The notes: a model not told the origin generated them from the letters alone. Shown: positions 25,507 to 42,926, counted from the first letter of the stretch. The stretch is 64,000 nt of DNA from Burkholderiales bacterium (GCA_016000195.1 JAECRO010000005.1:38010-102009), one strand, 5' to 3'. Numbers and translations are program-made.

Positions 25507-25833
25507 CGCGAGCGACTTGAGTCAGAAGACAAGACCAAAAATGAAATGATGCGCCAGATGATTCATACCTGCCTGCAAAATGCCTTGCCATTTCACTTCG
25601 TGCTGACGGACAGCTGGTTCGCTTCGGAGGAGAACTTTGACTTCATCACGAGCCGGGGCAAGCACTTCATGGCGGCCCTGAAGAGCAACCGGCTGGTGGC
25701 GTTGAGCCAGGAAGACTGGAAGAAAAAGCGTTTCGTGCGCGTAGACGAGCTGCGATTTTCAGCGCAAGGCGCCGTGCAAGGCTGGCTCAAGGGGTCTGCC
25801 GCCTGGGCCATGCGCAGGCTGTGGCGGGCATAA
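25507..25833 (+). mobile_element. DDE transposase fragment (IS remnant, truncated both ends)
   Basis: SEDKTKNEMMRQMIHTCLQNALPFHFVLTDSWFASEENFDFITSRGKHFMAALKSNRLV...; preceded by in-frame stop, no start or terminal IRs recognised. Confidence 0.85.
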
Positions 25834-25890
25834 TTGCGATTCGGAATTCCCCACTTCAGCCGCCCGTCGTTTCCCAAATCAGCACAATCC

Positions 25891-28401
25891 ATGTCCCGCA
25901 ACCCAGCACGCCCCCTCAGGAAGCCGATCTCCGCGGCCCTCGCCCCCGAAGAGCAAGCGGCACTGGCACTGCTTCATCTCGAAAAAGGCCGCTTTCGTGA
26001 TGCCATTGACTGCTACAAGACCCTGCTGAAGACCGGGCAGCGCCCCGAATGGCTGGCCGGGCTGGCCAGCGCCTATGCCGGACGCGCACAAGCGCTTGCC
26101 GACAAAGGCATGCGACGTGAAGCGATTGAGCTATGGCGCAGCCGTGCCGAGGTTTGCCACACGGCGCTGTGGGAAGGCCCCTACGCAGGCTGGCTGATGG
26201 CCGAGGGCAGAATGAGCGAGGTGCTGGGCGATCTGTCCAGGCGCCGCGCCGCATCCGATGGCAAAGCCGACGACGGGCTCGCCGCCCTGGAAGCGCAGTT
26301 GGCCCCCGGCTTGTTGTCAGCCGACGATGCCGCCTTGAAGCAACTGCCGGCCGGGTCGCTGCTGTTGCAGCACCGCCCGCTCGCCCTGGCGGCGCTGGCG
26401 GCCTACGCCCGCCAGGACGCGGCCGCGCTGGAGGAGGCACTGGCAGGCATTTCCTTTCGTTCGCCCTATCGCGACCTGCGCTCGCTGCTCAAGGCGATGG
26501 CGCTTTGGGAGACTGATCGCGAGGCGGCGCGCGCAGCCATCGAGCGCGTGCCGCGGACCAGCCCATTCGAGCCACTCGCGGCACCCTTGCGCAGCGTGCT
26601 GGCGTCAGGTTCCGAGCGTTTGCAGCATTGGGTCCGTCTCAACGGCAGCCAGCAATTGATTGCGCTGGACTTGCTGGGCTGCCCGCGCACATGGGCTCCC
26701 TTGTTGCAAGCCCTGGCTGCTGCCAAAGCCGATCTGGCTCCCACTGAGCTGTTCGATCTGGTGCAGCGCAACGCGCGCGTTTTGCCCGAAGCGCTTGCCA
26801 CGCGCGTGTGGCAATGGCTGGCTCCGTGGGCGCAGCGGCGCGGTTGTGCGAGCCCGCTGATCTTTGGCAAGCCATCCCGGGCGCACCAGGAGTGCGCCAC
26901 CGCACTGGCGGTCGAGATCAAAGGAGAGTTCGGCCATGCCGAGGAGCATTGGCTGGACGCGGTGGACCTGCTGGCCAGCAGCAAGGACACCGATGACCGG
27001 CTGCGCGCGGCGATGGTGCTGCGCCACATGGCGACCAGAAAAAAGCATTTGTCTCGCGAAGGGATGCTCGACAAGGCGGGCGCCGGGTATTTAACGCGCA
27101 GCCTGGAGTTTGACGCCAGTGACTGCGATGTACACGTTCGGCTGGTGGCGTACTGGCGACACCATGGCGATTTGAAAAAAGCCCGTGAACGCCTGGACGC
27201 AGGGCTGAGCCTGTTTCCCGACAGCGCGGCGCTGCTGGGCGAAGCGGTTGAAACCGCGCTGGCGACCAGCGCCTTCAAAAAGGCGGCCACCACGGCACGC
27301 CGCCTGCTGGCGCTCGATCCGCTCAACCGCAAGGTGCGCACCCTGCTTGGCAACGCCCATTTGTCACATGCCGGCAAGCACATCGCGGCAGGCAAGCTGG
27401 AGCCGGCGAAAAAGGAAATCGAAGAAGCGCGCAGCTGGCTGGGCGCCGCTGCCGAGCAGGGTCGCCTGCAACTGCTGCTGGCCTGGACCGAAGCGCAAGG
27501 AAGCCCTGAGCGGCTGCGCCTGGCGCAACTTGCCGTGACGACCTGGGGCGGCGGGCTGGCCGCTGGCTGGCGCCTGCTGCGGGAGGCGCAGGGCATCTTT
27601 GCCCGTGTTGACTTGGCTTCGGCGAACTGGCTGCTCAGTGAAGCAGGCATCGATTCAGCCAAAGCACTGGCGCCAGCCGATGTCCTGGAGCTGGTGCAGG
27701 TGCTGGAACAAGAGGCGCCTGTCGCCCGCAAGGGGGCAGCCCCGCTGGCGCCCTGGCGCAAGGCGCTGGCGGCGCTGGCTTCGGCCCCGCTGTTCGACGC
27801 CGAGACGACCGTGAGAATCTGCGAGGCATGGAGTAGCCACAAGGAGCACGATCTGCTTGAAAAGTTCGCCACGGCCGCACGCAAGCGCTGGCCGGACTGG
27901 CCCGTCTTTGTTTACCACGCAGTGGCCGCACGCTTTGGCAAGACCGGAGGGATTGCGACCGAGCGCGACTTCGATGATCTGGAGCGCGCGGGGAAGCTCG
28001 CACAGAAAAACAAGGATTTCAAACTGAACTCGCGCATCGAGGCGCTGTTCGAGGCCGATGATCCAGGCCCTGACTTTGATGATTCGCACCCGATGGAGGG
28101 GCCGCCACTCCAGGTGCTGCAGGCGCTTCGGGAGATGCTCGAACAGACCATCATGATGGATGGCGGCAAGTCCTTCCTGAAAAAGGCCCGCGACAGTTTT
28201 GGCGATGCGCTGATCCGCCAGCTTGAGAAGGAGTGTGGCGGCGACAAGAAGGCATTTTTTGGTCGCCTGATTGAACTGACCATGGCTGAAATGGCCAGAC
28301 CTTTTGGCCAGCCGTTCCAGCCCGCGACGATCATAAACAAGGCCGCGCCAGCCAAACCCATAGCGCCCGCCCAAGGGCAAGAAAGCCTGTTCGATGAGTG
28401 A
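25891..28401 (+). CDS. Large helical/TPR-like repeat protein, first gene of Hsp70-like operon
   Basis: MSRNPARPLRKPISAALAPEEQAALALLHLEKGRFRDAIDCYKTLLKTGQRPEWLAGLASAYAGRAQALADKG...; TPR-like segments; stop overlaps next start. Confidence 0.85.
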   Translation: MSRNPARPLRKPISAALAPEEQAALALLHLEKGRFRDAIDCYKTLLKTGQRPEWLAGLASAYAGRAQALADKGMRREAIELWRSRAEVCHTALWEGPYAGWLMAEGRMSEVLGDLSRRRAASDGKADDGLAALEAQLAPGLLSADDAALKQLPAGSLLLQHRPLALAALAAYARQDAAALEEALAGISFRSPYRDLRSLLKAMALWETDREAARAAIERVPRTSPFEPLAAPLRSVLASGSERLQHWVRLNGSQQLIALDLLGCPRTWAPLLQALAAAKADLAPTELFDLVQRNARVLPEALATRVWQWLAPWAQRRGCASPLIFGKPSRAHQECATALAVEIKGEFGHAEEHWLDAVDLLASSKDTDDRLRAAMVLRHMATRKKHLSREGMLDKAGAGYLTRSLEFDASDCDVHVRLVAYWRHHGDLKKARERLDAGLSLFPDSAALLGEAVETALATSAFKKAATTARRLLALDPLNRKVRTLLGNAHLSHAGKHIAAGKLEPAKKEIEEARSWLGAAAEQGRLQLLLAWTEAQGSPERLRLAQLAVTTWGGGLAAGWRLLREAQGIFARVDLASANWLLSEAGIDSAKALAPADVLELVQVLEQEAPVARKGAAPLAPWRKALAALASAPLFDAETTVRICEAWSSHKEHDLLEKFATAARKRWPDWPVFVYHAVAARFGKTGGIATERDFDDLERAGKLAQKNKDFKLNSRIEALFEADDPGPDFDDSHPMEGPPLQVLQALREMLEQTIMMDGGKSFLKKARDSFGDALIRQLEKECGGDKKAFFGRLIELTMAEMARPFGQPFQPATIINKAAPAKPIAPAQGQESLFDE

Positions 28402-28687
28402 CCCCTACCAGGTGCTGGGCATTGCCCGTGGCGCCGACGATGCCGCAGTCCGCGCCGCCTACCTCGCTGCCGTGCGACTGCACCCGCCTGAGCGCGATGC
28501 CGAGCGCTTTGCAGCCGTGCGCAGGGCGTTTGACACGGTGTCGAGCGCACGCTTGCGGCTTGAGCACGAGTTGTTTAACCAGGAACCGCCGACCCTCGAT
28601 GGATTGCTGCATTTGCTGCAGGCCGATTTTTCTCCACGCCGCCCCGACACCGCCAGCCTGCTGCGCCTGCTCAAAGGGGGGCAATGA
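28394..28687 (+). CDS. J-domain protein with HPP in place of HPD
   Basis: DPYQVLGIARGADDAAVRAAYLAAVRLHPPERDAERFAAVRRAFDTV. Confidence 0.85.
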   Translation: MSDPYQVLGIARGADDAAVRAAYLAAVRLHPPERDAERFAAVRRAFDTVSSARLRLEHELFNQEPPTLDGLLHLLQADFSPRRPDTASLLRLLKGGQ

Positions 28688-29358
28688 TGGACGCTGAGGC
28701 GAAAGAGCGCTTGATCGATGAGTTTCGGGCCTGCCTGGAGGATTGGGAGCCGGCCGATGGCAACGCTTGCGACGCAGCAGGAGACGGGCCTGCGGTGGAT
28801 CTGGCGCTGCTGTTCGCCGAATTGTCGGTGTTGCGCAATGAAGTTCGGGCCGAGGCACGCCAGTTCAAGACGGCGCTGGACGACATGCGCGCGCTCACCG
28901 AATTGCTCAGTGAACAAAACCGCCGGCTGGCGCAGGACCTGGAGCGCGCGCGCGAAGCCGAAGGCGCGGCGCTTCGCCAGAGCGAGCGCCGGTTGTTGCT
29001 TGAGATACTGGAGATTCGCGACCGCATTGGCGCTGCCATGGGTGTTTTTAGTGCCTATCGTCCCGGTTGGCTTTCCCGCCTGGCACCGGCCGAAACCCGG
29101 CTGGCACAGGGCCTGGGCGAAGGTATCACGCTGACCCTGCGCCGGCTGGACGATGTGCTCGCCGAGCGGCGCGTACGCGCCATCGAAGCGGTCGGGGGTC
29201 GGCTTGACCCCAACACCATGCGCGCCATTGCGACCGCCGTTGACGCGGACCGTGCCCCAGGTGAAGTACTGAGAGAGGCGCGACGCGGTTATATGCGCGA
29301 TGACGAACTGCTGCGCCTGGCAGAAGTCATCGTTAACAAAAGAGAGAATCAAATATGA
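28684..29358 (+). CDS. GrpE-like nucleotide exchange factor
   Basis: Coiled N-terminal half; C-term RLDPNTMRAIATAVDADRAPGEVLREARRGYMRDDELLRLAEVIVNK resembles GrpE head. Confidence 0.85.
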   Translation: MMDAEAKERLIDEFRACLEDWEPADGNACDAAGDGPAVDLALLFAELSVLRNEVRAEARQFKTALDDMRALTELLSEQNRRLAQDLERAREAEGAALRQSERRLLLEILEIRDRIGAAMGVFSAYRPGWLSRLAPAETRLAQGLGEGITLTLRRLDDVLAERRVRAIEAVGGRLDPNTMRAIATAVDADRAPGEVLREARRGYMRDDELLRLAEVIVNKRENQI

Positions 29359-31181
29359 GCGACACCATTGTTGGAATTGATCTGGGCACCACCAATTCCG
29401 AAATTGCCATCGTCCGAAACGGCCGGGTTGAAGTCATTGATATTGAAAATGGCGTGCCGATGCTGCCTTCGGTGGTCGGCCTGGGTGACGACAACGCCTT
29501 GCTGGTGGGCGCAGCCGCGCGCAATCAATACGTGCTTCACCCCGAGCGCACGATTCGTTCGGTCAAGCGGCGCATGGGTGAGGCCACGCGCCTGGAACTG
29601 GGCGGCAAGCAATACAGTCCCCCCGAGATCTCGGCCATGATCCTGCTGCGGCTCAAGAAGGTTGCCGAAGCGCATCTGGGCACGCCGGTCAAGCGGGCGG
29701 TGATCACCGTTCCGGCTTACTTTTCAGATGCCCAGCGCCAGGCCACCCGTGAAGCCGGGGAAATCGCCGGGCTGGAGGTGGTGCGCATTCTCAACGAACC
29801 CACCGCCGCCGCGCTGGCCTACGGCGCCCACCGCAGTACCGATGCGGGTTCAGCCGCCAGTGCGGTGGCGCGCAAGGCGCTGGTTTACGACCTTGGCGGC
29901 GGCACTTTCGACGTGTCGATTGTCAACATGGAAGGCGATGTGGTCGAGGTGCTGGCAAGCCACGGCAACAACCGCCTGGGCGGCGATGACTTTGATCGCT
30001 GCATTGTCGATTTCGTGCTGGACCACCTGAACAGCGCCCACGGCATCGATGCCGCAACGGCAGCGGCCTCGCCGATTGCCATGGCACGCCTGCAGCGTGC
30101 GGCGGAAGCCGCCAAGATTACGCTCTCGGATCGCCCCTATGCGACGCTGGCTGAAGAGTTTTTATTCGAAAAGGACGGCGCGCCCGTTCACTTGTCGCTT
30201 GAAATTTCGCGCCACGAATACGAGGCCTTGATCGAGCCCTACATTTCCGAGACCATGGACGCCGTCCATGTGGCGCTGAGCGGCGCCCGGCTGGCCGTCT
30301 CGGATCTGGACGAAGTGCTGCTGGTGGGCGGTGCCACGCGCACGCCCATGGTGTCACGCTTGCTGGAGGCCTTGACCGGCATTGCGCCCCATGGCGAGAT
30401 CAATCCCGATTTGTGCGTGGCCATGGGTGCTGCGATTCAGGGCCAGACCATTGCCGGCGGTGCATCGCCCACGGTGCTGATCGATGTCACACCCTACACC
30501 TTTGGCACCAGCACGTTCGGCTTTCTTGATGGCCGGGAATACCCCTGCTGTTTTGTTCCGCTGATCCGCCGCAATACGCCGATACCGGCCTCGCGCAGCG
30601 AGGTCTTTTACACCCTGGTGGACAACCAGGAGAAGGTCGATGTCACGGTATATCAGGGCGAAGCGCCAGACGCACTCGACAATATCGAGATCGGCCGCTT
30701 TCTGGTGGAGGGCCTGCGCAAGGTACCGTCCGGCAACCCCATCGTGCTGGAGTTTTCTATCGACATCAACGGAATTCTCCAGGTTCGCGCCAGCGAGAAG
30801 AAAACCGGACTTGAATACGCCATCACCATCGACAACGCGATTTCCCGCTTTGAGGACGGCAAGCTCGACCAGGCGCGTGACCGCATCCGCGCCATGTTTG
30901 GTGACGATGCATCGTCGCTTGCACATGGCAGTGCTGATGCGGATGATGCGTCGCCAAACGCTGAGCAGCTGGAGGAGCGCCGCAGCAGGGTGGAGGCGCT
31001 CGCGCTGATTGAGAAGGCCGAGCGACTGCTCAAGACCGCAGGCGCGGATGACCGCGAGGATCTGATCGACAGCATCGAAGCCGTGCGCGACGCCATGGGC
31101 GCAGACGCAGTGGAAGCTGAGGCTGGACTCGAACAAGCCATGGCGGCATTGGCCGACGTGCTGTACTACCTCGACCAGTGA
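29355..31181 (+). CDS. Hsp70-family chaperone (DnaK paralogue)
   Basis: [85 protein letters not shown]. Confidence 0.96.
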
Positions 31182-31447
31182 TGCAAGGTCTGGAACCGCT
31201 GGAGCGCTGCCCGGCTTGCCGCGCGCGTCTGGGCGAGGCGGATGTATGTACGCGCTGCGGAAGCGATTTCTCCATTTCCCGGCGTGCGCAGCGCCAGGCG
31301 GCAGCGCTTGCGTGCGTCGCAGTGCAAGAATTGGCACGCGGCCATAACCGGCAAGCCGCAGCTGCGGCTGCGACCGCATCCCAGCTGGCCAACCCGCTGC
31401 TGGCGCAAGCGGTAACAAGAGCGATCAGACGACGGGAAGGGAAATAG
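31178..31447 (+). CDS. Small zinc-ribbon protein, last gene of Hsp70 operon
   Basis: RCPACRARLGEADVCTRCGSDFSISRRAQRQ; overlaps Hsp70 stop by 4 nt. Confidence 0.8.
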   Translation: MMQGLEPLERCPACRARLGEADVCTRCGSDFSISRRAQRQAAALACVAVQELARGHNRQAAAAAATASQLANPLLAQAVTRAIRRREGK

Positions 31448-31717
31448 ATTTTTACCGGCACCGATTGCGGAGTCACGCAATGAGCCTCCCGTGCTGGAGT
31501 GGTGCTCATGCGTAGACTGCATCAGCAGGGTTTGCATTTCAAACGCATGCCTCAAATGGATAAAGTCAAGCTGAGTACACCCAGAATCTGCTTCCCCTCA
31601 TCTACGGCCGCGTCACGCTGGGTTTCACCGAAGCCGGCTTTGAAGCGGTGGCGTTGGCATTGCTGAAAACGCTTGGAAAGCCATCGCGCAACGGCAGCAA
31701 GGGGAAGTCAGCAATCC

Positions 31718-31924
31718 TCACCACAGGCGTTTGAATGCATCCGCCAAGCCGCCCAAGGTGGCTTGCGCAAGACTGGCCGTTTTCCTGTCCAGCGGCGCAT
31801 GGCGGCAATTTGGGCAGGCGCTGAAGAACTCGCCAGGCATCAGGGCGTCACTGCGCGGCGCGACGGTTTTGGACCAGTGGCAGGCGGGGCAGGTGTAGGT
31901 GGTTGGGGGTGGTGGAATGGGCAT
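31718..31924 (-). CDS. Small zinc-ribbon protein, last gene of GTPase operon
   Basis: MPIPPPPTTYTCPACHWSKTVAPRSDALMPGEFFSACPNCRHAPLDRKT; ORF track start 31939 (TTG), ATG at 31924. Confidence 0.75.
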   Translation of the reverse strand: MPIPPPPTTYTCPACHWSKTVAPRSDALMPGEFFSACPNCRHAPLDRKTASLAQATLGGLADAFKRLW

Positions 31925-31935
31925 GGGGAACCTTA

Positions 31936-33600
31936 TCAATGTGTATTTACGGCATTTTCCAAACGTAGCTTGAGTACATCCAAAAATTGCCGATCAGCAA
32001 CAAAAGATTGATGCTCGCGGGCCAGACCATTTGCTTGATCTGCAAGCGCTTTCTCTATCGGCAAAAACACCGGCATGACAACCACCCGGCAGGCATCAAT
32101 TAGTTCTGCCTGCAGATTTGCAGTTGTTTGATCAACATGATCTGCCAAAGCCCGAGCTTGCTTCTGCATTGCTTGGGAGTATTCCTCCTGTTTTTTCGTT
32201 TCTTGGTAATAGTCGTAAATACCACGAACGGCATCGATAGCGGGACCAATGAATGGAGCAGCTTTTCCAGCAAATCGCCCTGCGTTTCCAGCCATCTTTT
32301 CAATTGTCTTTGCCCCCGTGCCTTTCATTAAGCTCGGTATCCATTCTTTAGTCAGTTGCAAAGCCGCTTTTGTCGCCACCTGGGTTGCTTTTTCGGCACT
32401 TTCCTTGCCAACTTTTGAGGCAAAGTTCTTCATGTTGTCAAGGATGAAGCTGTCCGCTTGAGATTCCCCTTGTTTCTGGTTCTCGTGAGATGCGCTGGAT
32501 TTAAATTGTCTTGCTGTCGCATCGGTGGCAACGCGGATGGATTCGATATCCGCGAGAGAAGCGCCTAGCGCTGAAAGAGTCGCACCCGCTGCAGTAATTT
32601 CACGCTCCATCGCTTGCGTTGTCGCTGTCACTGCCGCTTGCATTGCCGCCTGCATTGCTGATTCATCACGAGCCTCTACGGCGGCGTGAAAAGCTGAACT
32701 GAACCCAACTGCAGCGCGTCGAACTGCGCCTGTGACAGCGGCAAGAACTCTTTCCTTTTCACCGCGCACAACAGTTTGGTGTTCTGTGATGAGTCGTGCA
32801 TCAATACTCGTCTCCATGCTGTTTAACTTGGCAAGAGCAGCATCAATCAGTTTAAGCACGCGCTGGCGCAAAGTTGCCGCCACTTCATGGGTCCCCGTCT
32901 GGCGTAGCATTGTTTCGATGTCCCGTGCCAATGCAGGCAAGCCACTAGCGGCGATTAAATTATGTTTGTTGCTGAGTTTTCCCTTCAATGCCAATTCGGC
33001 ATTGACCAGTCTCACGGGTACCTTTTTCGATAAATCACTTAAGCCTTTGGCCTGTCCGGCAGCATCTATGTTGGAAATAATTTTTTCATAAATAAATCTA
33101 TAGTTAATATCCGATTCAGAATATCCATCTTTATTATTGACAATCACCATGACGGGTTTTTCTGCAGTTACAATATCAATAATTTCGTCATAGATTGATT
33201 TTTCGTCAAAGCTGCCATTGGTGCTCAAAATGAAAAGAACAACATCGCTTTCACTCAGCTGTTCACGCGAAACGCGTTCGTGCTCTGCTGGTGCATCAAT
33301 GCCAGGAGTATCCAGCAGCTTGAAGCCATTCCATTCATAAGAAGTGACAGCACTGGTTTCAGGGCGATCAGCCACGGCAGCGCGTTCTTCGCCCATCAAG
33401 GCATTCAGCAGAGTGCTTTTGCCGGCGTTGTAAATTCCAAAAACCATCACCACGGGAGTCGCATCAGAAGCGCGGTTTGCAATGAAGTTTGCAAGCTCCT
33501 GGGCGGGTGCCTCACCAACATGCTTGGTTAATAAGGGAAGTCCGTCGGCAAGAATGCCAGACACAATACTGATTTCAGATTTCATTGGGGCGAACCTCAT
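31936..33600 (-). CDS. Dynamin/Era-like GTPase (554 aa)
   Basis: G1 GIYNAGKSTLLNAL, G3 DTPG, putative G4 VNNKD; long C-terminal helical region. Confidence 0.88.
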   Translation of the reverse strand: MRFAPMKSEISIVSGILADGLPLLTKHVGEAPAQELANFIANRASDATPVVMVFGIYNAGKSTLLNALMGEERAAVADRPETSAVTSYEWNGFKLLDTPGIDAPAEHERVSREQLSESDVVLFILSTNGSFDEKSIYDEIIDIVTAEKPVMVIVNNKDGYSESDINYRFIYEKIISNIDAAGQAKGLSDLSKKVPVRLVNAELALKGKLSNKHNLIAASGLPALARDIETMLRQTGTHEVAATLRQRVLKLIDAALAKLNSMETSIDARLITEHQTVVRGEKERVLAAVTGAVRRAAVGFSSAFHAAVEARDESAMQAAMQAAVTATTQAMEREITAAGATLSALGASLADIESIRVATDATARQFKSSASHENQKQGESQADSFILDNMKNFASKVGKESAEKATQVATKAALQLTKEWIPSLMKGTGAKTIEKMAGNAGRFAGKAAPFIGPAIDAVRGIYDYYQETKKQEEYSQAMQKQARALADHVDQTTANLQAELIDACRVVVMPVFLPIEKALADQANGLAREHQSFVADRQFLDVLKLRLENAVNTH

Positions 33601-35434
33601 TTATAAGCGTCATTTTAAATATCTCAAGGGCTGTGACAATGTTTCGGCTGTTGGTTTCCAGTGGGATTAAATAATCCTGGTCCAATTTTTGAAAGGTTTT
33701 CAGAACTGCGGCCTGAGCGATATCGCTGGCGGCGCGAGTAGTTTGGGCAATGACTTCACGCGTGTTATCGCCGACACGCACAGTAATAATGGTTTCACCT
33801 GACAAGGCACTGCCTGCCTTTGAGCCGGCCCAGCTACCAGCAGCTGCTGCAGCTGTTCCGGCTGCAGCACTCACGAGAAGGCTTGTACCACCTGTTGGTA
33901 TGGCTAATATAATCCCAATTCCCCCGATGAGTCCTCCCAATGCACCGCCAATGGCGCGTCCCTTGCCTTTATTGGACAAAGTAATATCTTCAGTGAGGTC
34001 GCAAAACTCCGGGAGATCTTTGAATTCATCGAACTTAACTGCTTCATTAATAGATGTTTGCGTGTCTAGTAGCACCTCGGCCAGTGCCTCATTGGTATGA
34101 CGAACCACGATATCCTGAACGAGTTGGCCGCACGCGCGGGACAAGGCCTTGACATCTCGACTTGTTCGCTGCCGCATGACTTCCTGCTCAATCGCAAGGT
34201 CAAGTTCGAGCATGACACGGCCAGTCACTGCTTGCTGCTTGCGCACCAGGCTCGTACGCTGGCGAGTAACACTGTCTTCCAAATTTTTAAGGTCGGCACG
34301 CAAACTTGTGACCGACAGTTCTCCAACAAGTACCATATCAACGAAAGTCCGCAGATTGTTCAGTGGCGCTGCCTTTTTCAGGCTGACGCCTTGAGTCTGA
34401 GTGAGTGACGTTAATTTTTCAAACAAACCCGACATGCCACTCTCGCGCAGCATTGCCGGATCATCACCATTTTCCTGGGCAAAAGTTACCGAGATTGTGA
34501 TCACATCGGCATCGAGCAAATCCCGAGTTGGCATATCGACTTTTGCCAGTATTTCCTGGCTAACATAATCAATTTGATTTTTTCGATCTTTCGGCGTTTT
34601 CATTAAAAGTTTTTTAATCTTGTTGCCCTCGTCATCAAAATCAATCTCGACTTTGTCGCAACGGGAAATAACTACAACGAAGGCCTTGCGTGCATGCAAT
34701 AAATGGGTAATCTCGTCAAGGTCACTGGCGCGCCCAGGTTGACCTGAGTTCATTGGATAAACGATCAGGTCAGCCGCATCCGCATAACTTTTGCTGAGTT
34801 CACCATTCTCTGGGGTCACTGAATGCAAGCCCGGTGAATCAACCCAAGTCAAGCCGGGAAGGCGAAATCCCTGTATCTCGGTGGTTGTTTCCATCGCGCC
34901 AACAGAAAACTTTCCTCTTGCATGCAAGGCTTTTCTCTTCTGCTCTACCTCTGCACTATTTGCCGCATCCTCCATAAAAAACGTAGGCTGAAAACCTGTT
35001 TCCTGGGCTAAACGGATAAGCCTGGAATCAGGATCACCGTGACCGTAAGCAATGTAATTGCCTATAGAACTTTTTCCTGCCTTCACTTTGCCATAAACAA
35101 AAACCAGGAGAGAATCACCATAGTGTTCTCGAAACTCGGTGTTCCGGTCGTATTTTTCAATCTTGTTTTTCCATACGGCAAGTCGCGCTGCTACTTTCTC
35201 GTCTGCACTGCGTGCCGCCTGTACCAAAGGATTGTCATGAGCCAAGTGATCTTTGGCAGTATCGCCAATAGTGTGTTCAAGCGAATCGGCAAGCCGGTTC
35301 AAGGCAGCCATCAATGCCGCCTCTCGTGCATGCACATTTTCCTTGGCCTCAGAAAACTGATTGCTTAACCCTGCCATGGATGAAATGAACGCTTGCCTTG
35401 AATCAGGAAAATTAATGTTATTCATTACTGTCAT
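33575..35434 (-). CDS. Dynamin-like GTPase with C-terminal glycine-zipper hydrophobic segment (619 aa)
   Basis: G1 YGKVKAGKSSIGNYI, G3 DSPG, G4 SRCDK; C-term KGRAIGGALGGLIGGIGIILAIPTGGTSLLVSAAAGTAAAAAGSWAGSKAGSAL. Confidence 0.88.
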   Translation of the reverse strand: MTVMNNINFPDSRQAFISSMAGLSNQFSEAKENVHAREAALMAALNRLADSLEHTIGDTAKDHLAHDNPLVQAARSADEKVAARLAVWKNKIEKYDRNTEFREHYGDSLLVFVYGKVKAGKSSIGNYIAYGHGDPDSRLIRLAQETGFQPTFFMEDAANSAEVEQKRKALHARGKFSVGAMETTTEIQGFRLPGLTWVDSPGLHSVTPENGELSKSYADAADLIVYPMNSGQPGRASDLDEITHLLHARKAFVVVISRCDKVEIDFDDEGNKIKKLLMKTPKDRKNQIDYVSQEILAKVDMPTRDLLDADVITISVTFAQENGDDPAMLRESGMSGLFEKLTSLTQTQGVSLKKAAPLNNLRTFVDMVLVGELSVTSLRADLKNLEDSVTRQRTSLVRKQQAVTGRVMLELDLAIEQEVMRQRTSRDVKALSRACGQLVQDIVVRHTNEALAEVLLDTQTSINEAVKFDEFKDLPEFCDLTEDITLSNKGKGRAIGGALGGLIGGIGIILAIPTGGTSLLVSAAAGTAAAAAGSWAGSKAGSALSGETIITVRVGDNTREVIAQTTRAASDIAQAAVLKTFQKLDQDYLIPLETNSRNIVTALEIFKMTLINEVRPNEI

Positions 35435-35934
35435 GCATCCACCTCGGAAGTTTTTATATCAACGATGACTTGGCGCAATTTTTTTAAATCCTTAATTTCC
35501 TTATTCAAACGAGTCAACTCCTGACGGGCCACCGAAGCAATATCGTTTTCCGATGCACCAGCTACCAATTGAGTCAAAATTTCGACCGACTTTTGATTAT
35601 CTTTAACAGCTTTGCGTAACTGCGTAAAGTTGAACGATGACGGCACTGGCTCCTCCGTAATAGAATGCGATTTTTGTAGCGCGATCAATCCAATTTTGGC
35701 GTAAAAAACAATAGCTTTACGCTCTTCTTCAGCCCGCTTTTCTTTTGCTTGATGCTCGACACGCTCGCGTGCTTCTTGTTCACTTTCGGTGCTCGAATTA
35801 TCCGAGTCAGAAAAAACTTTGTTGCCAGTAACGCCTTCATAAGCCGCTCCTGCGACTGCAATTGGAGCAATAACTGGAAGAGCCACAACAAAAGCAACCT
35901 TTTCCCAAAATCCCATATCGCTAAAAAATCCCAT
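35431..35934 (-). CDS. Small protein with N-terminal hydrophobic segment and coiled coil (167 aa)
   Basis: FWEKVAFVVALPVIAPIAVAGAAYEGV then charged helical SEQEARERVEHQAKEKRAEEERK; stop overlaps next gene start by 4 nt. Confidence 0.8.
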   Translation of the reverse strand: MGFFSDMGFWEKVAFVVALPVIAPIAVAGAAYEGVTGNKVFSDSDNSSTESEQEARERVEHQAKEKRAEEERKAIVFYAKIGLIALQKSHSITEEPVPSSFNFTQLRKAVKDNQKSVEILTQLVAGASENDIASVARQELTRLNKEIKDLKKLRQVIVDIKTSEVDA

Positions 35935-35943
35935 ATATCCTCC

Positions 35944-36825
35944 TTAATATATTTTGTCGTACGCAGCAAATTTTGTGCGCAATGAATTGATCAATGTTTC
36001 TGAGTCTTTGGTAAAAGCCTGAGTTGATTGATCAAATTTTTTCTGAGCAATAATGCTTTGCTCCATGCGTTTGGCAATTTCTGTATCGACTGCATTGATT
36101 AATTCCTTGCAGCTATCATCGATACGCACTTGACGCAGTGTTTGGATATGGCTGTGCATACGCGCCAGGTTTTCAAAAATATACTGCTGCAGTACAGGAA
36201 TCCGGCTGTACTCGACAAGTTTTTGCTTGCCTTGTAATTTTCCGTTCTGGTAGCTCGTGAAAGAGACCTGGAATAAACGCGGTTCAATCCCAAGGCAGCT
36301 TTTGATTTGATGCTGCACCTTTTGAGCAATTGCATCGATGACTTCTTCATTCGAGTCAAGTCGCGTCAGTATGACTACAAGGCGCTCCTCAAGCCCGTGC
36401 CTAGCTCCCGGCTGGCCTGCAAGCTCTAAAAGAAATTTAACCTCCGCTTGATCTAGTTCACCAACTCCTGGGTCATGAACAAAAAGCAAAACGTCGGCAA
36501 TGCCCAAGGCATCCCAGGCTTCCTTGTCATCTTCTTCGGTAGCGTCCAGGCCAGGGGTGTCAACGAAAATGAAATCCTGATGCGACAGTGTTTGGTTTTG
36601 CACTGTCGTTCTCACGGCGCCAGTGGCAAACAGCTCTGTTTCAAGATGGTCGGTTAGTGCATTCAACAACGAACTCTTCCCCGCCTTGAGCAGACCACAT
36701 GTGGTTATTCGAAGCGGTTGCGCTGTTGCGGAAAGGGCACTGTCAAGAGCAGACGTTAACTGACCGCCATCATTCAAATATTGATTTAACTTTTTATAAG
36801 TTGATATTTTTAAATCTGAACTCAT
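35944..36825 (-). CDS. Small GTPase, Era/dynamin-like (293 aa)
   Basis: G1 GLLKAGKSSLLNAL, G3 DTPGLD, G4 TRLDS; SD AAAAGGAAA upstream of ATG. Confidence 0.88.
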   Translation of the reverse strand: MSSDLKISTYKKLNQYLNDGGQLTSALDSALSATAQPLRITTCGLLKAGKSSLLNALTDHLETELFATGAVRTTVQNQTLSHQDFIFVDTPGLDATEEDDKEAWDALGIADVLLFVHDPGVGELDQAEVKFLLELAGQPGARHGLEERLVVILTRLDSNEEVIDAIAQKVQHQIKSCLGIEPRLFQVSFTSYQNGKLQGKQKLVEYSRIPVLQQYIFENLARMHSHIQTLRQVRIDDSCKELINAVDTEIAKRMEQSIIAQKKFDQSTQAFTKDSETLINSLRTKFAAYDKIY

Positions 36826-36984
36826 AAATTTCCTTTTTTCATTGATTTCTTCTAGAGGGGCTTGGGCCTGATCTGTGGTGGCTTTACGCCACGGGTCAGG
36901 CGGGGGTGCAGGCAGAGATGCTTGCCTGGTGTTACTGGCCGTCTTGGCCGCGTGCAGTGGCCAGAACTTGGCAGGTAAGGGCAG

Positions 36985-37110
36985 TCAAGCTTGGGCTGCC
37001 TTGTGCAGCCGGCTGACGTAAATGCTCAGTGCAGCGGTGGAAAGAGCGCCTGCCGCAAAGGCGATGGCAAACGCAGCCAGGCTTTCAAGAGGTGAAGTGG
37101 TAGTGATCAT
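36985..37110 (-). CDS. 41-aa single-TM peptide (not in ORF track)
   Basis: MITTTSPLESLAAFAIAFAAGALSTAALSIYVSRLHKAAQA*; SD AAGGAC upstream of ATG; hydrophobic core. Confidence 0.6.
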   Translation of the reverse strand: MITTTSPLESLAAFAIAFAAGALSTAALSIYVSRLHKAAQA

Positions 37111-37161
37111 GGTTTCGTCCTTATTTGGAGTTGGTGATGGAAAAAATGGGTGTGCAGTGCG

Positions 37162-38067
37162 TCATGCTTGCCCAAGGTAACCCCGCAACTGGCTTTCCAG
37201 TTCTGCCTGCATGCCTTCCGGGCTGATGACGTGGATGCTGGGCAGCCAGTAGCGCACGATGGGCAAAATCTGGTTCGGGTGGGCGATGGTGCCGGAGATG
37301 ATCAGGCCGCCGTCCTCCAGTTTTTTCTCAATCTTCTGGCCGCCTATGAGCTTGCGGCGCAAAAAGTAGTCGGCTGCGTGCCGCGCCACCTTGAGCACCA
37401 CTTCGGTTTTTTTCAGGTTCATCCAGATGCTGTCTTCCTCGTTGACGTTCTTGACGATGGCCGGGTCGGGCGTGAAAGTTTCCGGCCATACCAGCAGCCG
37501 GTCGATCTTGCTGAACGCATAGGACTTGAGCTGGCCTGCATCCGTGGCGGCCAGGTACCAGATGCCGTCCTGGTTCACCAGCTTGTAGGGCCGCACGGAT
37601 TCAACCAGCTTGGAGCCGGCGGGTTTGAGGTATTCGTAACTGACGGCGTGGCATTCCTCGATGGCATGCTTCAGCTGGTTGAACAACTGCTCTTTACCGC
37701 GCAGGTCTTCGTAGTTATGGCCCCGGATCAACAGCGCACTCTGCAGACGGTTTTCCAGAATGGACTTTAAAAAATCTGTCGAGAGCATGGGGTGCAGACC
37801 TTGCAGCCCAGCCAGGCTGGCGAAACGCTGCACGTCCTTGAAGTTGAGCGTGCCCAGGCGCATTCGGTTGATCGAGTAAACGCCTTCTTTCTTTTCCAGC
37901 TCCAGGAAGGCAAAGCGCTCGTTCAAATCACGCTGAATGGTGCGCAGGTTGACGCCAAACTCTTCAGCCAGCGCGTGCGGGTCGAGTTTTTCGCCTTCAT
38001 TGAGGCGACGCAGGATCTCGGTCAGCCGGTAGGCAATGGTTTCCTGGAGTTTTGGTTTGCTGGGCAT
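37162..38067 (-). CDS. WYL-domain HTH transcriptional regulator
   Basis: YRLTEILRRLNEGEKLDPHALAEEFGVNLRTIQRDLNERFAFLE HTH_11-like; C-term WYL-like region with DGIWYLAATDAGQLKSYAFSKID; start trimmed to MPSKPK. Confidence 0.88.
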   Translation of the reverse strand: MPSKPKLQETIAYRLTEILRRLNEGEKLDPHALAEEFGVNLRTIQRDLNERFAFLELEKKEGVYSINRMRLGTLNFKDVQRFASLAGLQGLHPMLSTDFLKSILENRLQSALLIRGHNYEDLRGKEQLFNQLKHAIEECHAVSYEYLKPAGSKLVESVRPYKLVNQDGIWYLAATDAGQLKSYAFSKIDRLLVWPETFTPDPAIVKNVNEEDSIWMNLKKTEVVLKVARHAADYFLRRKLIGGQKIEKKLEDGGLIISGTIAHPNQILPIVRYWLPSIHVISPEGMQAELESQLRGYLGQA

Positions 38068-38229
38068 GTCGGAAGGCTTCGATGTTGGGGTGCCACAAAA
38101 AAGCTTTGCGGCATGTAACCCATCGTAAGCGTCGCCTCTGACAAACCACGTCGTTTTTGGCGACGCCTCAAACTTTTTCCAAAAAGCCGGGCCAAGCGTG
38201 CAATGGCGCGGCTTTCTACAATAGCGCCC

Positions 38230-39279
<1,050 letters not shown>

Positions 39280-39337
39280 ATAAGGAAAATAAGGAAAAGC
39301 CGCAAGCGCTTTCAGCGCCTTGCCGGCAGGCGCGGCA

Positions 39338-39922
39338 TCACAGGCGGGTCCGGGAGGCGATTTCCTGCTCCATCGCCTGCGTCAGCTGGACATACATCTT
39401 GAGCTTGTCGGTAATCTCGCGCAGGCGCACGCCGATTTGCAGGGACAGGGCCAGGATCAGCTTGGCGGCCACGGGCGCATTTTCCTGCATCAGCCGGTTC
39501 AAGGCCTCGCGCGTCAGGATGGCGCAGCGCAGCGGGGTGGCGGCAATGCAGGTGGCGTAGCGCGGCTGGGCGTCCAGCAGGCCCAGCTCGCCAATCAGGC
39601 TGCCCGGCCCCAGCACGGTGATGGTGATGGGCTCGACGCGGCTCACCACCAGCGTTTCCACGGTCACTTCGCCGTCGAGCAGCAGCAGCATGAAGCCGGT
39701 GTCGCGCGCATCGCCTTCACGAATAAAGATCGTTCCCTTGGCCACCAGTTGCGGCTGCATGTAACGCACGATGACGCGGGCTTCCTCAAGCGTCAGCTGC
39801 ATCAGGGCGGTCGGGGCCATCAGCAGCTCGGCCGCGAGGTCAGCCGACCCGGAGCCTTCCGTCGTGTCCTGCGGCCCACCGTCAGTGTGTAAGAAAGTTT
39901 TCTTGAAAATGTTTTTTAACAT
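39338..39922 (-). CDS. Cyclic nucleotide-binding domain protein
   Basis: GTIFIREGDARDTGFMLLLLDGEVTVETL...PGSLIGELGLLDAQPRYATCIAATPLRCAILTREAL. Confidence 0.85.
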   Translation of the reverse strand: MLKNIFKKTFLHTDGGPQDTTEGSGSADLAAELLMAPTALMQLTLEEARVIVRYMQPQLVAKGTIFIREGDARDTGFMLLLLDGEVTVETLVVSRVEPITITVLGPGSLIGELGLLDAQPRYATCIAATPLRCAILTREALNRLMQENAPVAAKLILALSLQIGVRLREITDKLKMYVQLTQAMEQEIASRTRL

Positions 39923-39990
39923 GGGGGGCGCTGGGTAATTTGATGGCTGACGGCTTGCTGCCGGCATTCGATGCTTAAAATCGAGCTTAA

Positions 39991-40077
39991 CTCAAGGAGC
40001 GTTGCAGCGAAACGGTGGTTTCGTCAGGCTTGGGTAAACAGGGCCGCCCCCTCCCTTTTTAGCAACGACGCTCACCT
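39991..40077 (+). ncRNA. S-adenosylhomocysteine (SAH) riboswitch candidate
   Basis: CAAGGAGCGTTGCAGCGAAACGGTGGTTTCGTCAGGCTTGGGTAAAC...AGCAACGACGCTCACC matches remembered SAH-riboswitch pattern (GGAGCGyTGCarC..., CAGGCTyGG, AACGRCGCTC) directly upstream of metH cobalamin half. Confidence 0.85.
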
Positions 40078-40094
40078 TTATTCCAAGGTGAGCC

Positions 40095-42926
<2,832 letters not shown>

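Follow-up and report, generated by a model that had tools for sequence, protein, structure and literature searches.

Three Hsp70 lineages are usually recognised in bacteria (PMC8215388), and specialised Hsp70 paralogues with co-chaperones of their own have precedents (PMC8215388, PMC11019930, PMC9239167). Among dynamin-like GTPases, in turn, Eleos and Dynamins are catalogued as defence types (PMC11811056); Bacillus subtilis DynA protects from phage (PMC8844932), and LeoABC of enterotoxigenic Escherichia coli (ETEC) influences vesicle release (PMC4159319). We analysed a stretch of 64,000 nucleotides (nt) from a Burkholderiales bacterium (GCA_016000195.1, JAECRO010000005.1:38010-102009; "the window"), in which, between positions 25,507 and 38,067, a plus-strand operon for a tetratricopeptide repeat (TPR) protein, a J-like protein, a GrpE-like protein, an Hsp70 and a zinc-ribbon protein (cassette A) faces a minus-strand operon for dynamin-like GTPases (cassette B). 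The locus consists, almost certainly, of two independent accessory cassettes and not of one system. As a whole it is best read, with a somewhat better than even chance, as a dedicated Hsp70 machine, which its TPR scaffold would dock on the replication sliding clamp, next to an Eleos-like cassette.

Occurrence of the two operons

The first-pass annotation of this DNA proposed a single stress/defence system of chaperone-assembled GTPases. We checked for co-occurrence in three samples, namely 101 related genomes (by whole-genome searches), 399 genomes across the order, and 399 genomes across the phylum (Pseudomonadota), and found both operons together only in this genome. Among the related genomes, the GTPase of 619 amino acids (aa) is present in this genome and in Polaromonas G024 only, and the Hsp70 and TPR genes in this genome and in Polaromonas G037 (P. 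glacialis) only. The order sample has the GTPase in 5 genomes and the TPR protein in 1, and the phylum sample has the operon-type Hsp70 in 17 and the 619-aa GTPase in 3; the overlap in each is this genome alone. Less than one chance overlap between the two genes is expected in these samples, so the absence of overlap is, taken alone, weak evidence.

The strong evidence is found at the loci themselves. No homologues of the window GTPases occur in the flanks of 21 chaperone-operon loci, and no chaperone genes in the GTPase-operon loci of Polaromonas G024, the Klebsiella plasmids or the Photobacterium plasmid; the Hsp70 operon is found without the GTPases in P. glacialis, in two other betaproteobacterial metagenome-assembled genomes, in 16 of 398 sampled Pseudomonadota genomes, and on cyanobacterial plasmids. 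The genome of the window is a Polaromonas; the closest named relative for the chaperone operon is P. glacialis, of the same genus, with a DNA identity of 90.6% covering 25804–31464, and this block ends at the operon edges, beginning 87 nt before the first chaperone gene and ending 17 nt past the last. The GC content at third codon positions (GC3) is 0.64–0.76 in the chaperone genes; the GTPases lie lower, at 0.38–0.46, and metH lies higher, at 0.88. The local separation, the identity edges and the GC3 values together indicate that the two sets differ in recent history and met in this genome.

The joint system is thus rejected, on separate occurrence and on composition; rare co-occurrence in other genomes, as found here, is an outcome that the first-pass annotation itself had named as refuting it. 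The two operons are adjacent here, and other phyla have DO-GTPase systems that include HSP70 and GrpE (PMC7159879), both of which speak for chaperones assembling the GTPases; with the operons apart in all other places searched, their codon composition different, and the GTPases being LeoA-type dynamins, we consider that model very improbable. The GAP1-N2 DO-GTPase conflict systems (Kaur et al. 2020) do resemble the locus in bringing GTPases together with HSP70, GrpE, J and TPR proteins, but the Hsp70 operon of the window is independent of any GTPase, and Pfam scans of the window proteins found no GAP1 or FNIII domains, bearing in mind that Pfam may not model GAP1. The annotation had also known of no named system with this gene set: a check for one gave a partial match of the GTPase half to Eleos (LeoA/LeoBC) and no convincing PADLOC match for the chaperone genes.

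The chaperone operon and its Hsp70 lineage

Cassette A is very probably a dedicated, scaffolded Hsp70 machine. Its five genes, all on the plus strand, run from 25891 to 31447 with successive overlaps of 8, 4, 4 and 4 nt, just as first described: the TPR-superhelix scaffold protein (~836 aa, 25891–28401), the J-like protein (97 aa, 28394–28687), a GrpE-family nucleotide exchange factor (224 aa, 28684–29358), the Hsp70 (608 aa, 29355–31181) and a zinc-ribbon protein (89 aa, 31178–31447) with a CxxC…CxxC pattern and a helical tail. The Pfam matches are clear for Hsp70 (1.1e-144) and GrpE (1.4e-19; 70.8 bits over a cut-off of 25.8), and for DnaJ the score of 27.8 bits is exactly the cut-off. At the level of named subfamilies the assignments fall away: the GrpE-like protein lies under every NCBIfam GrpE equivalog cut-off, and the Hsp70 lies under those for DnaK (TIGR02350, 523 vs. 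822.55 bits; NF001413, 533 vs. 648 bits) and HscA (413 vs. 708.55 bits).

The Hsp70 itself belongs to a separate lineage. Scores with an operon-Hsp70 profile are bimodal, at 625–820 bits for 16 further genomes and 460 for the DnaK of this genome, and a maximum-likelihood tree separates the 22 operon Hsp70s from six DnaKs, HscA and another Hsp70 (100/100, branch 0.99). The genome holds DnaK, an HscA and a third full-length Hsp70 elsewhere, which bears out the earlier statement that this set is distinct from the housekeeping dnaK locus; the operon Hsp70s split from the third one too, a protein not proven to be HscC (no curated model for HscC was listed). The operon Hsp70s are, in short, a clade separate from DnaK and HscA, and cassette A would, if our reading is true, add a further bacterial lineage to the usual three (PMC8215388).

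In its catalytic and allosteric residues the clade remains conventional: K70, E171, R151 and D148 are kept, as is R167 in 20 of the 21 operon Hsp70s (Q only in Nostoc), a residue so nearly invariant that J/Hsp70 covariation at this position gives no test. The GrpE-contact loop is retained, unlike in the HscA and the third Hsp70 of this genome, and the D211-region loop is missing or shortened. Cassette A thus has in common with the DnaK/DnaJ/GrpE machine an Hsp70, a J-fold protein, a GrpE and these residues, but differs in its separate Hsp70 clade, a J-like protein without the histidine of the His-Pro-Asp (HPD) motif, a TPR scaffold, a zinc ribbon, and transferability. HscC with DjlB/DjlC (which carry HPE) and HscA with HscB are likewise specialised paralogues with dedicated J proteins, and shortening of the D211-region loop is reported for HscC; the operon Hsp70, in contrast to both, keeps the GrpE-contact loop, has a GrpE gene in the operon, and comes with a TPR scaffold, and it lies outside the HscA branch tested.

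The order TPR–J–GrpE–Hsp70–zinc ribbon recurs in the window, in two further loci (L011, L012), in the phylum-sample loci and on a Nostoc plasmid. Genes for J-like and GrpE-like proteins precede Hsp70 in 16/16 phylum-sample loci, a zinc ribbon follows it in 15/16 as well as in Nostoc, and a recognisable TPR gene lies upstream in 14/16, the exceptions being one contig end and one unmatched 493-aa open reading frame (ORF). The five-gene order of Nostoc is the same, but no sequence similarity was detected between its TPR protein and that of the window, and the two are alike in size and position only. Frameshifted copies of the operon, largely in the same order, were also seen on two Acaryochloris plasmids (L034, L035), followed by penicillin-binding-protein-like ORFs and then by an RNB-family ribonuclease gene. 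DnaK1 of N. punctiforme has a different gene arrangement. The five-gene operon is undescribed in the literature searched, in which J-protein surveys were covered incompletely, so that an earlier notice is possible.

In an alignment with 20 relatives and the J domain of E. coli DnaJ, the HPD histidine is absent in 21/21 J-like proteins; the position reads PPE in the window (28484–28492, plus strand, marking a degenerate J domain), [P/S]-P-[E/D] across the proteobacterial copies and PAH in cyanobacteria. AlphaFold2 places helices at residues 4–8, 16–29, 36–49 and 52–62, and the leading Foldseek matches are J-domain structures, including a DnaK-bound J domain, with modest E-values of 0.016–0.1. 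To judge from the model, the protein appears to keep the J fold despite the loss of HPD. Replacement of H or D abolishes ATPase stimulation in all systems tested, save for the HPE of DjlB/C (PMC8215388, PMC13254874), and these published mutant effects, taken with the loss of HPD, suggest one of two modes for the J-like protein: pairing with an adapted Hsp70, or recruitment without stimulation. Pseudo-J-domain proteins such as Pam16 have in common with it a J fold with HPD replaced, but here [P/S]-P-[E/D] is conserved lineage-wide, a dedicated Hsp70 and GrpE adjoin, and no second, HPD-bearing J protein is found in the operon. The action on Hsp70 of a J domain without the HPD histidine is "enigmatic" according to a 2026 review (PMC13254874). 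If our reading is true, this operon is a natural test of whether such a domain can drive or recruit an Hsp70, because the non-HPD J-like protein is encoded together with its own Hsp70 and GrpE.

The TPR scaffold and its clamp-like tail

The reading frame of the TPR gene opens at a TTG at 25834, and the start at 25891 was set from homologues. Pfam TPR matches are weak; AlphaFold2 predicts an all-helical solenoid up to residue ~806 and a disordered tail from ~807, and Foldseek matches the protein to long TPR scaffolds (Naa15, Ctr9) with low TM scores. Near the C-terminus of the tail lies QESLF (28378–28392, plus strand), a candidate beta-sliding-clamp-binding motif. Two forms of such motifs are known, the hexapeptide QLxLxF/L and the QxSLF of betaproteobacteria.

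A loose pattern, Q.[SD][LM]F or Q[LM].[LMIF].[LF] within the last 15 residues, was composed after the tails were seen; it occurs in 10 of 19 TPR copies, the window's among them, and in 0 of 177 control proteins, with 0.02 expected on shuffling. The published consensus is stricter (Q-phi-x-[L/M]-x-[F/L], with LQLELDF as a phage-display winner; PMC11139829) and is found in 4 of the 19 copies of this first set. Nine more distant TPR relatives, 26–30% identical to the query, then served as a held-out set for which the strict pattern was fixed beforehand, and eight of the nine carry it (QLEMDL, QLELDL, QLELEL) against 0.06 expected. The tail motif is conserved at the level of the family, as the one conserved element in an otherwise divergent tail, with the window copy fitting the loose form only.

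The held-out relatives also revealed a reduced module. In their loci (L133, L135, L137, L138, L139) the TPR gene with its clamp-like tail is mostly followed by an ORF of 65–72 aa, which in several of them corresponds to the J-like protein's C-terminal half and is without the J domain; no GrpE or operon Hsp70 adjoins the TPR gene in the reduced-module loci, and one genome (G534) carries both the full and the reduced form. The conserved core hence seems to be scaffold, J-protein tail and clamp-like motif, to which the full version adds the Hsp70 machine. As the motif persists where neither Hsp70 nor GrpE adjoins, a function in docking Hsp70 is unlikely for it.

Several observations weigh against a clamp motif and against our assignment of a role. 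The motif is short and was first spotted on inspection of the tails; QESLF of the window is not a strict match because position 2 is E and not aliphatic; the P. glacialis tail reads GLGSLTDE; and the operon-type TPR proteins of four loci (L062, L063, L064, L067) are without the motif. The held-out set is one family, whose related sequences are not independent events, and it counts some nearly identical tails, which lowers the effective number of cases. Moreover, the flanks of the 21 loci share no gene beyond the five, and thereby link neither a partner protein nor a client to cassette A; the only cluster found in many flanks resembles generic signalling proteins.

Weighing these points, we give the docking of cassette A on the beta clamp a nearly even chance. 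In such a machine the long TPR superhelix would be the scaffold, its disordered tail docking on the replication sliding clamp and the TPR protein probably binding the C-terminal part of the J-like protein. The J fold would then present the operon's own Hsp70 to the scaffold by recruitment, the GrpE-like protein would exchange nucleotide and so recycle the Hsp70, and the small zinc-ribbon protein would complete the set; each of these protein contacts is suggested by conservation. Given the clamp-type tail motif, the machine would most likely act at replication or repair sites, where it may remodel clamp-associated or DNA-bound proteins. The fuller version of this proposal is put forward tentatively: cassette A as a further Hsp70 machine lineage, with a scaffold that tethers a non-HPD J protein, Hsp70 and GrpE to the clamp, and with a reduced version that docks without Hsp70. 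If true, it describes chaperones that are targeted to the replication clamp as one machine, and suggests that they serve replication or repair, or act in conflicts with mobile DNA.

The tails of the cyanobacterial TPR proteins end in FQELF or GFQF, outside the clamp consensus, and no replication gene is linked in the flanks examined. Both facts suit a different and possible, if rather doubtful, explanation, in which cassette A would be a mobile accessory Hsp70 set for stress or proteostasis, specialised in the manner of HscC or MxDnaK2, with its tail bound by a partner other than the clamp, for example a subunit of the machine; the specialised Hsp70 paralogues with co-chaperones of their own, cited at the outset, provide the precedent. 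The fit of the tails to both known clamp-motif forms argues against it, as does the conservation of the motif amid a divergent tail and in the reduced module.

We think it quite unlikely that cassette A is instead an antiphage or anti-plasmid system, sensing foreign replication at the clamp with its Hsp70 as a conformational switch or threshold. Such a role would agree with its patchy, transferred distribution and its carriage on plasmids, with the Schlafen-AlbA and ImmA/IrrE-type genes nearby in P. glacialis, with the Gabija gene GajA adjoining the operon in L066 (2350–4374; PADLOC 1.8e-239), and with the proposal that chaperones are thresholding devices in conflict systems (PMC7159879). The five genes, however, include no recognisable effector (nuclease, pore or NADase), none of the five proteins has a convincing PADLOC match, and most of the flanks examined hold ordinary or transposon genes (BacA, transporters, transposases). 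The clamp-docked machine is the reading we prefer for cassette A.

The LeoA/LeoBC-like GTPases and the setting of the locus

The GTPases of cassette B had been called dynamin-like, rightly so: PADLOC matches make them kin to a named defence system (LeoA/LeoBC, Eleos). The 554-aa protein (31936–33600, minus strand, as are all genes of this cassette) matches LeoA over most of its length (6.8e-37, residues 33–499), has the motifs GIYNAGKS (G1), DTPG (G3) and NKD (G4), and aligns in its C-terminal region with the LeoA structure 4aur. The 619-aa protein (33575–35434), which has a glycine-rich hydrophobic segment at residues 492–526, scores better with LeoA (7.7e-20) than with LeoBC (8.1e-16), but its relatives favour LeoBC. 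A third GTPase of 293 aa (35944–36825) matches the N-terminal half of LeoA (3.3e-20), and G1 and G3 are retained in all three. Between the small GTPase and the 619-aa protein is a 167-aa coiled-coil protein (35431–35934), predicted to be membrane-anchored by a transmembrane-like N-terminal stretch (residues 7–35).

The order GTPase–coiled coil–GTPase–GTPase is kept in three other lineages, Polaromonas G024 (L009), Klebsiella-group plasmids (L014) and a Photobacterium plasmid (L015), in each of which the small GTPase is the first gene and the coiled-coil protein holds the same position; its transmembrane-like stretch is found in G024 and Klebsiella as well. Acetobacter, Diaphorobacter, Acinetobacter and Burkholderiales have simpler versions of two genes. 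Carriage of the operon on conjugative and mobilizable plasmids is patchy, and on the Photobacterium plasmid it adjoins CRISPR cas1/cas2 and RAMP genes. A search of E. coli genomes gave no close counterpart of the Klebsiella GTPase operon, and an IMG/VR scan with the alignment of the 619-aa GTPase found nothing. A viral origin of the GTPases was considered and dropped, the IMG/VR matches with the 554-aa alignment being at the level of the G domain only. As a further observation on the Photobacterium plasmid, two more GTPase genes (L015, 1421–3223) lie beyond csm6/cas1/cas2, so that the CRISPR genes are flanked by GTPases.

By its sequences, cassette B is related to LeoA/LeoBC. It shares with Eleos tandem dynamin-family GTPases, the LeoA-like C-terminal region and a mobile, patchy distribution, and differs in two added conserved genes (the small GTPase and the membrane-anchored coiled-coil protein), in an unsplit LeoBC, and in scores far under the NCBIfam LeoA subfamily cut-off. 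This last point counts against the assignment: of the 325 bits set for LeoA/HP0731 (NF041922), the 619-aa protein reaches 24.3 and the 293-aa protein 15.8, and the 554-aa protein has no listed match in the NCBIfam scan. On balance cassette B likely works like Eleos, and it is most likely an extended Eleos with a presumed antiphage role. The cassette proper (36825–31936, perhaps with neighbours) comprises a LeoA/LeoBC-like pair, a third GTPase and the membrane-anchored coiled-coil protein; its GTPases may form hetero-oligomers that assemble on the membrane and remodel it once triggered, most likely by phage. The GTPase half thereby widens the Eleos family by two accessory genes with testable roles.

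Bacterial dynamins have roles in membrane maintenance. Together with the effect of ETEC LeoABC on vesicle release (PMC4159319), this is the ground for regarding cassette B as a membrane-maintenance or vesiculation device and not as defence, which we consider unlikely: patchy carriage on conjugative and mobilizable plasmids and a CRISPR neighbour in Photobacterium are a pattern typical of defence, and Eleos and Dynamins are listed as such (PMC11811056), and DynA confers phage resistance (PMC8844932). An extended Eleos remains our preferred reading of cassette B.

The gene list given earlier for the whole minus-strand operon (38067–31718) is correct, but the WYL regulator is placed only loosely in it. 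This 301-aa WYL/WCX-domain protein (37162–38067; Pfam WYL 1.6e-10, WCX 7.3e-9) is separated by 51 nt from a 41-aa single-transmembrane peptide ORF (36985–37110), itself 159 nt from the GTPases, and the GC content is 0.57 for WYL, 0.58 for the peptide and 0.45 for the GTPases; the gaps and the GC difference indicate that WYL is not tightly part of the GTPase operon. The peptide ORF may not be a gene, and no equivalent was seen in other loci. A dedicated role of WYL as GTPase regulator is doubtful, given an 87% identical copy that adjoins metH in Polaromonas G003 (L100, C223), a genome where searches did not detect the 619-aa GTPase; against this doubt, another Polaromonas does have a WYL copy, 56% identical, beside its GTPase operon. 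At the other end of the cassette, a small zinc-ribbon protein of 73 aa (31718–31939) overlaps the 554-aa GTPase gene by 4 nt; despite this overlap its GC3 of 0.74 is chromosome-like and unlike that of the GTPases, and no counterpart was identified in other GTPase loci.

The two operons converge on a 270-nt intergenic stretch (31448–31717). The region from 25507 to ~25833, with which the stretch first described begins, is outside the repeat-protein gene and is the remnant of a DDE transposase (95 aa, 25546–25833, plus strand; Pfam DDE_5 2.5e-4, DDE_Tnp_1 7e-4), which borders the chaperone cassette on the left. On the best reading, both cassettes landed in a tail-to-tail arrangement, with an amidohydrolase gene on one side and metH on the other, and the WYL copy beside metH in G003 suggests that the metH–WYL edge is an insertion site for accessory genes. 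Finally, metH at 38203–42926 consists of two ORFs, between which the opposite strand encodes a cyclic-nucleotide-binding-type protein; the gene is also split in several Polaromonas relatives, and in other Burkholderiales it is a single ORF of ~1240–1330 aa.

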